Source: Gilliamella mensalis (GTDB lineage: Bacteria; Pseudomonadota; Gammaproteobacteria; Enterobacterales; Orbaceae). From it: DNA of 64,000 nucleotides. Position 1 is the first letter of the stretch. The number at the start of each line of letters is the position of its first letter. Under the pieces are notes generated by a model. It made no database searches and was not told the origin of the DNA. It was given only the letters and a program-made list of their open reading frames with translations. The DNA lies in contig NZ_FMWR01000011.1 in NCBI RefSeq assembly GCF_900103085.1, positions 1 through 64,000 of the forward strand, in the 5' to 3' direction. The position numbers and the translations under genes are program-made. Shown piece after piece: positions 12,878 through 16,430 of the stretch.

Positions 12878-13708
12878 ATGAACCAGTTCACGCCGTATAG
12901 TATATATGGCATTATCGGTTATCCTTTAGGACACAGTATGAGTCCACTTATTCATACTACGTCGTTTCAAGATTATGGAATTCCGGCAGTTTTAGTGCCT
13001 TTTCCTACACCACTTGAAGAGATATCGACACTTTTCCAATCAGTAAGATTATTAAATATTCGTGGGTTATGTGTCACTATTCCACACAAACAGACTATCA
13101 TTCCTTATTTAGATGAAGTGACCGAACATGTAAAAAAAGCAGGTGCTGCAAATTTGGTGTATTGGGATGGCGATAAGCTCTGTGGTGATAATACAGATAT
13201 TATTGGATTTATGGAGCCACTTCGAACCAAAAAACTACCCGCTGAATACAAAAAAGTGTTATTACTTGGTGCGGGAGGTGCTGCACGTGCAGCTGTTGTG
13301 GGATTACAGGAGCTTGGTTATACCGATATTACAGTAGCCGATATTGCCGATGATTTATCTCAGGCATTAGCTAATGAGTTCAATCTTAAAACAGCCTCAT
13401 GGGAAGATCGTAGTAAAATTGAAGCTCAGATTATTATTAATTCAACACCATTAGGTATGACAGGTAAATTTGAAGATCAAACACCTTATAAACAAGCTTG
13501 GTTCAAAGGTAAAGGTGTGGCTTATGATATTGTTTATACTCCATATAATACACTGTTTAGACAAGAAGCAGAAAAAGCAGGCTGGGAATCTATTTCAGGA
13601 CGTGAAATGTTTATCGGTCAAGCAAATGCTCAATTTAAAATTTGGACAGGTAAAGATCTTTCTGATCGTGCAAAACAGGCTGTAATTGATGCTTTAACTA
13701 CAAACTAA
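12878..13708 (+). CDS. Quinate/shikimate dehydrogenase, AroE/YdiB family
   Basis: Interconverts shikimate (or quinate) and the 3-dehydro acid. The 276-aa protein has the N-terminal substrate domain with HSMSP (residues 19-23), catalytic Lys71 in TIPHKQ and Asp107 in GDNTD, then a Rossmann domain with GAGGAA at 131-136. The second strand ends VADIADD, with acidic residues where NADP-specific AroE has the Asn-Arg-Thr phosphate-binding motif. This suggests NAD use, as in YdiB or catabolic quinate dehydrogenases. AAGGAG precedes the ATG. Neighbouring genes are a YdiL-like regulator, shikimate kinase and a YdiM/YdiN-like carrier. It could instead be the cell's biosynthetic AroE; the window cannot decide. 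Confidence 0.82.
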   Translation: MNQFTPYSIYGIIGYPLGHSMSPLIHTTSFQDYGIPAVLVPFPTPLEEISTLFQSVRLLNIRGLCVTIPHKQTIIPYLDEVTEHVKKAGAANLVYWDGDKLCGDNTDIIGFMEPLRTKKLPAEYKKVLLLGAGGAARAAVVGLQELGYTDITVADIADDLSQALANEFNLKTASWEDRSKIEAQIIINSTPLGMTGKFEDQTPYKQAWFKGKGVAYDIVYTPYNTLFRQEAEKAGWESISGREMFIGQANAQFKIWTGKDLSDRAKQAVIDALTTN

Positions 13709-13865
13709 TTACTAAACAGATAAACAAACATATTTGGTTAAATTGGAATTAATCGTGTTTTCTATTATTGATATAAATTAGCTTGGCAATTGCCCACTAT
13801 TTATTTTACTGAGAGTTGGCATAGATCAATTGGATAGTGTAATAACCTTATAATAAGGAGCATTT

Positions 13866-14219
13866 ATGACTAATTTAGAATTACAAGCATATCGTCGTTT
13901 TCTTATGCTAAAAGTGTCTGAGGCTAGTGAACATATTGGTAAAACAGATATTAAAACGTGGCATGATTGGGAAAACGGTATAACCCCTATTCCAGAATCT
14001 GTCACAAAAGCAATGCAGGAGCTAAAAAAACGACGAAACGAAAAGATAAATATTATTATTAATAGTATTAATGATCGTATTGGGAGTAATACCATTCGTT
14101 ATTTTATGACATATGAAGAGTTTAAAAAGGTAAATACAGATCTTGATGTGATTCAATGGCGATTACATCAATCGATCGCTACAGAGCTCTATTTTCGTGG
14201 TTTAGAAAAACTATGTTAA
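13866..14219 (+). CDS. YdiL-family (DUF1870, Aca2/YdiL-like) helix-turn-helix protein
   Basis: 117-aa protein aligning end to end with E. coli YdiL: NLELQAYRRFLML at the start, TWHDWENG-IP in the helix-turn-helix region, INSINDRIGSNTIRYF in the middle and QSIATELYFRGLEKLC at the end. The family has an N-terminal HTH related to the anti-CRISPR-associated repressor Aca2. YdiL itself has no established target to my knowledge. AAGGAG at 13856-13861 supports the ATG. In E. coli ydiL lies beside ydiM, ydiN and ydiB; here it lies between a YdiB/AroE-like dehydrogenase and aroL, so a role in regulating shikimate genes is inferred. Confidence 0.88.
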   Translation: MTNLELQAYRRFLMLKVSEASEHIGKTDIKTWHDWENGITPIPESVTKAMQELKKRRNEKINIIINSINDRIGSNTIRYFMTYEEFKKVNTDLDVIQWRLHQSIATELYFRGLEKLC

Positions 14220-14235
14220 TGGACTTTATCAAGAT

Positions 14236-14262
14236 GACTTTTAGGAACCTAAAAAGTTTTCT
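14236..14262 (+). terminator. Possible terminator after the YdiL-family gene
   Basis: Imperfect inverted repeat GACTTTTAGG-AA-CCTAAAAAGTT followed by TTTCTT, 17 bp past the stop codon. One stem position is bulged, so strength is uncertain. Confidence 0.45.
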
Positions 14263-14271
14263 TATAATCTT

Positions 14272-14289
14272 TGTAAATAATTATTTACA
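14272..14289 (+). promoter_or_regulatory. TyrR box upstream of aroL
   Basis: TGTAAA-N6-TTTACA, a perfect match to the TyrR operator consensus, about 160 bp before the aroL start. A second weaker copy with 4 of 6 matches in its right arm (TGTAAA-N6-GTTGCA) lies at 14354-14371 and overlaps the end of a TATAAT at 14347-14352. E. coli aroL is repressed through strong and weak TyrR boxes, so the arrangement fits. Confidence 0.72.
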
Positions 14290-14435
14290 AAATAACGCAT
14301 AAAATTTAATTTAATCATTTGAAAAATAAATGATTTTTATTATTTCTATAATATGTAAAAAATATGTTGCAAAAATAAGAGTGAATCACTAGCATGGTTA
14401 ATATATTCTGTAAATCTGAAAAGATAGAACCCGAT

Positions 14436-14948
14436 ATGAATAAAACAATTTTTTTAGTTGGTGCAAGGGCGGCAGGTAAAACAACAATGGGAAAAATGTT
14501 AGCGAATAAGCTATCGTTTTCTTTTATTGATACCGACAGCCATTTGCTTGAAACTACTCAAAAAACAGTGGCTGAAATTGTTGAAAAAGAAGGTTGGGAA
14601 GGATTTAGAGCAAGAGAAAGCCAAGTGCTTGTTGATACAACTAAACCCAATCGTGTCATTGCCACTGGTGGAGGCATGGTATTAGCTGAGCATAACCGCG
14701 ATTTTATGAAACAAAATGGCACGGTTATCTTTTTATCTGCGCCAGCGGCAACGCTAGCTGCTCGTTTAATGAAAGATCCGAATGTTGCTCAAAGACCCTC
14801 GTTAACGGGCCTATCTATTGCTGATGAAATAGAAAAGGTGTTAGCTGAAAGACTACCTTTATATCATGATGCTTCGCACCATATGGTGAATGTTGATCAA
14901 GATGAAAGCTTGATCCTAGCAAAAATGCTTGAAATGCTTGGAAGTTAA
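14436..14948 (+). CDS. aroL: Shikimate kinase AroL
   Basis: Phosphorylates shikimate to shikimate 3-phosphate in chorismate synthesis. The Walker A loop is GARAAGKTT, followed by the shikimate-binding DTD, the GFRARE arginine motif and ATGGGMVL. LID-region arginines lie in AQRPSLTG, and LAERLPLYHDASH closes the domain. Sequence is closer to E. coli AroL than AroK. ATG 14436 gives 170 aa and begins where homology begins; ATG 14394 would add 14 residues. TyrR-type sites lie upstream. Its place beside a shikimate/quinate dehydrogenase suggests that imported or oxidised shikimate could be channelled to chorismate. Confidence 0.93.
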   Translation: MNKTIFLVGARAAGKTTMGKMLANKLSFSFIDTDSHLLETTQKTVAEIVEKEGWEGFRARESQVLVDTTKPNRVIATGGGMVLAEHNRDFMKQNGTVIFLSAPAATLAARLMKDPNVAQRPSLTGLSIADEIEKVLAERLPLYHDASHHMVNVDQDESLILAKMLEMLGS

Positions 14949-14966
14949 TTTAACCTTTTATAACAG

Positions 14967-14991
14967 ATACCACTTAAAAAGTGGTATTTTT
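14967..14991 (+). terminator. Intrinsic terminator of aroL
   Basis: Perfect ATACCACTT / AAGTGGTAT stem with a 3-nt AAA loop and a T-rich tail, about 18 bp after the aroL stop. Confidence 0.85.
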
Positions 14992-15174
14992 ATTGGAATA
15001 GATAGTAATAAAAATTCTATATAACTTTAATTTTATATCATATTTTTGCTATTTTTTAGGATTAAAGAAGATAAAAGTTAAGTAATAAATCTAGACTCAT
15101 TCTTTCTGCTTAATATTGGTACATGTATATTGAATAGAACTAAATTTTTATGTTTTACATATGGAGTATGACAA

Positions 15175-16374
15175 ATGGATAATCGAAAGATCAATTCTTA
15201 TGGAATTGTTGGATCTATTTATGCAAACTATATTATTCAAAGTATTGCGCTGATTGTGATTATGCAATTTTCTCAAGGGCTTTCAAAGCAGCTAAATACT
15301 GATATAGTTGGGCTTGGTTATGTTGCATCGGGCATAGGAATTGGCAAAATATTTTTAATGTTCGTCGGTGGGCTGCTATCAGATAAATTTGGTAGAAAGT
15401 TATTTATTTATCTAGGAATGATCTGTTACGCAATCTTCTTTATAGGGATGAGTTGTTGTACTAATATTCATGTGGCTTTTTGTCTAGCCATTGCCGTGGG
15501 AGCAGGTAATTCTTTTTTAGATACAGGCTCTATGCCTGCCTTGACTGAATGCTTTCCTGGATCTGCAGGATCTGCGAGTGTTCTTATAAAAGCCTTTATT
15601 TCCATCGGAACGCTAGTTCTACCTTTCATTGTTACTTTTTTTGATATCAACAATATATGGTATGGTTGGGCATTTTTCGGTTTTACTGCTTATTTAGTGA
15701 TTAATAGCTTATTATTATTACCTCAACAATTCCCACATAAAGATACAATAATTAAAGGTTGTAAAGGCTCAGGAAACTATTTTACAGGTAATCCTCGATT
15801 TGAATTTGAAGGTATTTTACTGATTATCATGGGATTTACTACAACAGCAACGTTTGTCATTATTTTACAGTGGTTACCAACTATCGCTATTAAAGGTGTT
15901 AATATGAGCGATATCGATGCCAAACAACTGATCAGCTATTACAGTACAGCATCGATTATCTCAGTATTTGTTACGGCTTTTGTTGTTAAGCGTCTTTTAA
16001 AACCTATATTTTGTATTATTATTCTGCCTGCTTTGTCAGCCCTAGTATTAATTATTTTTTATTTCAATATTTCACCACAGATGTGTGTTATCGCTGCAAT
16101 TGGCATGGGATTTACTGCTGCTGGTGGCGTGTTACAGTTGACGTTGGTTGTAATGCAACAAATGTTCCCTACTCGTAAAGGTCTTGCTGTAGGTTGTATG
16201 TATACATTTAGTGGACTATCGTTTGTTGTCATTCCGCTTATCGTGCCAAAATTAGCTATGATCAATGTCAGTTATGCTATCTTAATAGACTTTTTTATTG
16301 CAGTATCAAGTGTATTACTTGGATCAATTGTTTTTTATCGCTTTAAGAAGGTCATTGATTTAACAAAAATATAA
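15175..16374 (+). CDS. MFS transporter, YdiM/YdiN type
   Basis: Inner-membrane major facilitator with about 12 hydrophobic segments over 399 aa. The loop 2-3 motif is GGLLSDKFGRKLF. GAGNSFLDTGSMPALTECFPGSAGSASVLIKAF and the GFTAAGGVLQLTLVVMQQMFPTRKG segment closely follow E. coli YdiM and YdiN. TGGAG eight bases before the ATG is the ribosome site. Substrate is unproven. The E. coli homologues flank ydiB and aroD, and here the gene follows aroL and a quinate/shikimate dehydrogenase, so a quinate, shikimate or related aromatic acid is the natural hypothesis. Confidence 0.82.
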   Translation: MDNRKINSYGIVGSIYANYIIQSIALIVIMQFSQGLSKQLNTDIVGLGYVASGIGIGKIFLMFVGGLLSDKFGRKLFIYLGMICYAIFFIGMSCCTNIHVAFCLAIAVGAGNSFLDTGSMPALTECFPGSAGSASVLIKAFISIGTLVLPFIVTFFDINNIWYGWAFFGFTAYLVINSLLLLPQQFPHKDTIIKGCKGSGNYFTGNPRFEFEGILLIIMGFTTTATFVIILQWLPTIAIKGVNMSDIDAKQLISYYSTASIISVFVTAFVVKRLLKPIFCIIILPALSALVLIIFYFNISPQMCVIAAIGMGFTAAGGVLQLTLVVMQQMFPTRKGLAVGCMYTFSGLSFVVIPLIVPKLAMINVSYAILIDFFIAVSSVLLGSIVFYRFKKVIDLTKI

Positions 16375-16404
16375 TTTTATTGATCTAAAGTTTAATGTTA
16401 TGGG

Positions 16405-16430
16405 GCATGCCAATATGGCATGCTTTTTTT
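16405..16430 (+). terminator. Intrinsic terminator of the MFS gene
   Basis: Perfect GCATGCCA / TGGCATGC stem with ATA loop followed by seven T, about 30 bp past the stop codon. Confidence 0.9.

Follow-up and report, generated by a model that had tools for sequence, protein, structure and literature searches.

The window analysed here is a stretch of 64,000 nucleotides (positions 1 to 64,000 of the forward strand of contig NZ_FMWR01000011.1) from the 2.28 Mb genome of Gilliamella mensalis (Orbaceae; RefSeq assembly GCF_900103085.1). Between positions 12878 and 16374 it carries four genes, all on the forward strand, which encode an AroE-type shikimate dehydrogenase that is the presumed housekeeping AroE (12878-13708; 276 aa; TIGR00507), a YdiL/Aca2-family helix-turn-helix protein (13866-14219; 117 aa), the shikimate kinase AroL (14394-14948), and a major facilitator superfamily (MFS) carrier of the YdiN/YdiM group that is a candidate quinate/shikimate importer (15175-16374; 399 aa; PF07690). 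All four open reading frames were found at these coordinates. A first-pass annotation had read the group as a regulon under YdiL control, in which imported quinate or shikimate is oxidised by an NAD-dependent dehydrogenase and reaches chorismate by way of AroL.

The genes and families named in that annotation were confirmed. AroL passes model NF002988 (231.9 bits, cutoff 161), and an alignment of starts among relatives makes an inner ATG at 14436 the probable conserved start, which yields a protein of 170 aa. The YdiL protein matches Pfam Aca2_YdiL (PF08965) over its full length (residues 1-117; 119.5 bits, cutoff 23.8) as well as the PDB structures of YdiL (1s4k) and Aca2, and is 38% identical to E. 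coli YdiL. The carrier matches Pfam MFS_1 (105.5 bits) and is 36% identical to E. coli YdiN and 32% to YdiM. Conservation was followed in 44 Orbaceae genomes, of which 39 are at least 90% complete; the relatives from the same genus are Gilliamella species, of which two are deposited as 'Orbaceae bacterium'. The co-occurrence that had been anticipated was found, with the order dehydrogenase-YdiL-AroL-carrier, flanked by rpmB and argA, kept in most of 34 Gilliamella genomes, so that the grouping is not a chance one. Separate transcription of the genes, also part of the first-pass annotation, is plausible given an intrinsic-terminator-like hairpin and T-run 3' of aroL (14967-14994, forward strand; read by eye and absent from the scanner list) and an intrinsic-terminator-like site 3' of the carrier gene (16402-16426, forward strand; terminator scan).

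The dehydrogenase had been taken for a YdiB-like, catabolic member of the shikimate dehydrogenase (SDH) family, and this identification was not borne out. It passes the TIGR00507 aroE model (205.2 bits, cutoff 200.2), as does YdiB of the same genome (205.1 bits), and falls below the cutoffs of both the YdiB model NF009390 (101 vs 349 bits) and the QsuD quinate/shikimate dehydrogenase model NF010631 (85.8 vs 515 bits). It retains the substrate and catalytic residues of E. coli AroE (S20, S22, T67, K71, N92, T106, D107, Y220, and Q248), and its AlphaFold model (pLDDT 95) has an AroE, 2egg, as the best PDB match (TM 0.90). Three SDH-family genes are present in the genome: the window type, YdiB, and SdhL (HI0607 type). 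The true YdiB (NF009390, 385 bits; 54% identical to E. coli YdiB) is encoded at another locus (L099), immediately ahead of aroD; judged from this separate YdiB-AroD locus, the window enzyme is not YdiB. As for a second aroE, YdiB and SdhL are thus the genes found; an enterobacterial-type AroE was detected neither among the three SDH-family genes of this genome nor elsewhere in the Orbaceae.

The window-type dehydrogenase was found in 39 of the 39 genomes that are at least 90% complete, and it is the only SDH-family gene universal there. YdiB is missing from six Orbaceae genomes (G003, G009, G020, G029, G061, and G064) and SdhL from one (G066); the window-type gene is intact in the genomes that lost YdiB. 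AroB is encoded in 44 of 44 genomes, and AroD and a shikimate kinase were found in all near-complete genomes searched. The pathway must therefore include an AroE, and among the candidates the window enzyme alone is universal. Gilliamella has been credited with chorismate synthesis (PMC11325843) and with de novo synthesis of phenylalanine and tryptophan (PMC9600256). Universality, together with retention where YdiB was lost, indicates that the window dehydrogenase is almost certainly the housekeeping AroE. The notion that SdhL or YdiB is the real biosynthetic enzyme, with the window gene product as an accessory, could appeal to the fact that both are widespread and belong to the SDH family, but it is very improbable because neither is universal and because three shikimate-site residues, two serines and a tyrosine, are missing from SdhL.

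The gene aroB is not at its usual place between aroK and damX, where the order is aroK-damX-dam-rpe-gph-trpS (L228:4153-5544, G000 contig C41), and lies on another contig (G000:C21:81556-81894). A dependence on imported shikimate, raised by its absence after aroK, was dismissed since aroB is present elsewhere in all 44 genomes.

In place of the NADP-binding Asn-Arg-Thr (N-R-T) motif, the dehydrogenase has VADIADD (residues 153-159; codons 13334-13354, forward strand), which was correctly described as NAD-type in the first-pass annotation. The segment aligns to TNRTVSR of E. coli AroE, so that N-R-T becomes D155-I156-A157 and the enzyme is without this hallmark of AroE; the motif is typical for AroE, yet the fold and chemistry do not require it. 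Asp155 directly follows the second Rossmann strand (residues 150-154) in the AlphaFold model. Among plant enzymes, NRT tends to go with NADP, and D-I-D with NAD (PMC7752791); the NAD enzyme of C. glutamicum was not among the alignments listed in a fragment search for a residue-level match. Two properties had been named as contrary to the regulon proposal, namely that the dehydrogenase is the only AroE of the cell and that it is specific for NADP: the first is essentially what was found, whereas the motif does not point to the second.

Asp occupies position 155 in 40 of 42 Orbaceae enzymes. The exceptions are Orbus hercynius (G062/L122; L187:8272-9090), which has NMT, and the deepest branch (G066; L191:4307-5128), which has NRN, and these orthologues would be naturally occurring intermediates in the change of the cofactor motif, or reversions of it. 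Asp155 is also retained in lineages without YdiB and the carrier (G003, G009/G020/G029, G061, and G064), and thus an NAD-type site is compatible with a biosynthetic role. The nearest relatives outside the family are a Planctomycetota metagenome-assembled genome (support 0.98) and Desulfovibrionaceae, the latter mostly with NRT. On one gene tree, whose deeper support is weak, the simplest history would be that an NADP-type AroE was acquired and that its motif then switched within the Orbaceae. A more specific proposal, held at slightly less than even confidence, is that the sole biosynthetic shikimate dehydrogenase of the family is NADH-dependent, having come as an AroE from Desulfovibrio-like gut bacteria and changed its cofactor inside the family, and that this ties aromatic biosynthesis to the fermentative NADH pool.

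The region upstream of aroL bears on how the second biosynthetic gene is controlled. A genome scan with the TyrR box consensus TGTAAA-N6-TTTACA (PMC4374768) gave a single exact match in the 2.28 Mb, TGTAAATAATTATTTACA at 14272-14289 on the forward strand, 5' of aroL. A second TyrR-type box, TGTAAAAAATATGTTGCA (14354-14371, forward strand), lies 82 bp downstream of it and keeps the G and C of the arms. With at most one mismatch allowed, 37 of 43 Orbaceae aroL loci have a TyrR box, where shuffled sequences lead one to expect 0.3. At the same stringency, no box was found in the Orbaceae 5' of the genes for the dehydrogenase, YdiL, the carrier, or AroD, and one was found among 40 regions 5' of ydiB. 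The same scan recovered two boxes, 76 bp apart, at E. coli aroL. A TyrR homologue is encoded in the genome, for which NF008085 is by far the best model although its score is under the cutoff (475 vs 576 bits). In the YdiB-less clade of G009, G020, and G029, both the TyrR box and ydiL are gone from between the dehydrogenase gene and aroL (L082:8258-9401, L071:1169-2312, and L090:9631-10375). The boxes point to TyrR-controlled biosynthesis and not to a YdiL regulon, and aroL is very probably, on this sequence evidence, a biosynthetic gene regulated by aromatic amino acids, like its E. coli counterpart. With these boxes in its promoter, and with aroB encoded and the de novo pathway intact, AroL is poorly explained as a link in a route from imported quinate.

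The carrier shows a different association. A genome-wide search found no YdiN-type carrier in any of the six YdiB-less genomes, and a carrier was found in each of the six YdiB-encoding genomes tested, with which the other loci read agree. On the dehydrogenase tree, the carrier and YdiB have undergone four joint losses and no single loss, and two of the four occurred in Gilliamella lineages in which the two genes are at separate loci. Assuming independence and a correct tree, the probability of such a coincidence under random placement on 82 branches is about 6e-7, or 3e-4 for the two unlinked Gilliamella events alone. The joint losses therefore mark the carrier and YdiB as a probable uptake and oxidation pair, with quinate and/or shikimate as the predicted substrate of the carrier. 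Several bacteria of the bee gut consume quinate that comes from pollen (PMC5726620); a survey of 95 Gilliamella genomes reported no quinate transport or biosynthesis genes in its seven quiA-bearing genomes (PMC11325843). The import pathway put forward in the first-pass annotation is plausible only where it concerns the carrier and the distant YdiB, and is largely incorrect as regards the dehydrogenase, AroL, and YdiL. In two genomes (G004 and G011; L066 and L073), the carrier part is separated from the YdiB-AroD part by rsmB and a gene for a 447-aa membrane protein, and the same two genes still flank YdiB in bee Gilliamella. This arrangement may show how the cluster was split in bee Gilliamella.

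The YdiL protein follows the carrier and YdiB less strictly. In G003, the G009 clade, and G064, it is gone or broken along with the loss of YdiB, and the loss of YdiL is associated with that of YdiB and the carrier (Fisher p 0.008, one clade collapsed). YdiL is nevertheless kept in G061 despite the loss of YdiB and the carrier. With both partners present, G062 and G066 lack it and G008 has a broken copy; in G035 and G067 it is unlinked. In Zophobihabitans entericus (G035), it stands alone beside a KefC-like transporter, away from shikimate genes (L098:7757-9939). Published work has assigned no function to YdiL, and autorepression has been suggested (PMC8434428). An alignment of 35 ydiL upstream regions revealed no conserved operator. 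Palindromes common to the promoters of one genome were more frequent than in shuffled sequences (16 vs 3, 6-bp arms), but none was common to the promoters across genomes, an absence that is weak evidence. The shared palindromes were rejected as a YdiL operator because all are AT-rich and almost all differ between genomes. Similarly, an inverted repeat between the dehydrogenase gene and ydiL was set aside, as its sequence varies while its symmetry is kept, in the manner of a terminator. The link of YdiL to the carrier and YdiB is a loose one.

In other Orbaceae, the same genes occur in a larger setting. Three genomes (G060, G063, and G065; L185:4125-18749, L188:589-14278, and L190:6347-18547) have a fuller cluster in the order LysR-(AroE)-aldo-keto reductase-YdiL-AroL-carrier-carrier-TIM-YdiB-AroD-short-chain dehydrogenase/reductase (SDR)-BaiCD-like flavoenzyme. 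The added genes are those for the LysR regulator, the aldo-keto reductase (missing in G065), another carrier, of YdiM type, a TIM-barrel protein, and the SDR, together with a BaiCD-related Fe-S flavoenzyme of 680 aa on those contigs that extend to it. Four Gilliamella genomes (G005, G012, G019, and G033; L067, L102, L199, and L203) have an extra cluster locus without AroE and YdiL genes. At the loci read in the window genome, no LysR, second carrier, TIM-barrel, or flavoenzyme gene was seen. The fuller cluster looks like a pathway for quinate/shikimate dissimilation or reduction, possibly an electron sink, and the LysR protein would be a better candidate for its regulator than YdiL; a literature search on anaerobic quinate/shikimate reduction found nothing directly usable.

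The fuller cluster raises the possibility that the dehydrogenase is bifunctional, serving both as biosynthetic AroE and as an NAD-linked oxidase that runs imported shikimate backwards, and so belonging to the biosynthetic and the uptake parts alike. Its embedding beside LysR, YdiB, and the flavoenzyme in G060, G063, and G065 is in keeping with this, as is the NAD-type motif itself. However, the motif is unchanged in lineages without carrier and YdiB (the G009 clade, G003, and G061) and so does not depend on catabolism, and YdiB already offers the oxidising step. A dual role is therefore judged unlikely, although less so than the other alternatives.

Overall, it is likely that the four genes are two functional parts lying side by side, a housekeeping AroE with a TyrR-controlled AroL and a carrier that works with a distant YdiB, and not one quinate regulon. 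In this arrangement, a dehydrogenase of Desulfovibrio-like ancestry would replace the enterobacterial AroE in all Orbaceae and would reduce 3-dehydroshikimate to shikimate, probably with NADH in view of the D-I-x pocket that stands in for N-R-T. AroL would then phosphorylate the shikimate, with aroL under aromatic amino-acid control by TyrR. Separately, quinate and/or shikimate would enter the cell through the YdiN-type carrier and be oxidised into the pathway by YdiB, and YdiL, a small helix-turn-helix protein, would often travel with this second part without being required by it. Several observations weigh against the two-part reading. An NAD-type site is usual for catabolic enzymes; other Orbaceae (L185, L188, and L190) have both the dehydrogenase gene and aroL within the larger, putative quinate/shikimate cluster, and the dehydrogenase may have arrived with, or may also serve, the pathway of that cluster; additionally, aroK is also encoded, so AroL is not essential alone.

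A single YdiL-controlled regulon would draw on the conservation of the four genes together, the grouping of the same kinds of genes in E. coli and in the larger Orbaceae clusters, the NAD-type motif, the association between losses of YdiL and of YdiB and the carrier, and the consumption of quinate in the bee gut (PMC5726620). Against this stand the existence of a separate YdiB, the persistence of the dehydrogenase and AroL where the carrier, YdiB, and YdiL are gone, and the TyrR boxes at aroL. For YdiL as regulator of all four genes, no shared operator or conserved promoter palindrome was found; the rest of the group persists in several genomes where YdiL is missing, broken, or unlinked, and YdiL is retained in one genome (G061) that lost the carrier and YdiB. 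The regulon is thus improbable.

What is new is that the biosynthetic AroE of the Orbaceae, apparently their only one and of Desulfovibrio-like ancestry, carries an NAD-type motif that would have changed from NRx to DIx within the family; the genes are otherwise ordinary. This motif is often taken as a sign of catabolic SDH-family enzymes, and annotation based on it would here mislabel an essential gene. The series NRN, NMT, and DIx within the family would provide a natural set for the study of cofactor switching. In addition, two processes are separated in a bee symbiont, the making of aromatics and the uptake of pollen-derived quinate or shikimate.

Comparison with known systems places each part. 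The dehydrogenase resembles biosynthetic AroE (TIGR00507) in its fold, catalytic Lys and Asp, shikimate-binding Ser, Ser, and Thr, family cutoff, and universality in the Orbaceae, but has D-I-A for N-R-T and is 30% identical to E. coli AroE. With the NAD quinate/shikimate dehydrogenases (YdiB, C. glutamicum QsuD 3jyo, and plant quinate dehydrogenase) it shares an acidic residue close to where the second Rossmann strand ends, yet at a position occupied by Ser in the YdiB of E. coli and Gilliamella it has Thr, as AroE does. The YdiL protein belongs, by its full-length PF08965 match, to the same two-domain family as structures 1s4k and 7b5j, which includes the anti-CRISPR repressor Aca2; no prophage or acr neighbour was seen at the window locus and no operator was found, in contrast to the Aca2 system. 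At aroL, two TyrR boxes precede the gene here and in E. coli, where TyrR controls it, with a predicted spacing of 82 bp as opposed to 76 bp. Finally, the resemblance to the E. coli ydiL-ydiM-ydiN-ydiB-aroD group noted in the first-pass annotation holds, in that YdiL, a YdiN/M-type carrier, YdiB, and AroD are all encoded in this genome, but they are divided between two loci, with AroE and AroL added at the window locus and YdiB-AroD at the other (L099).

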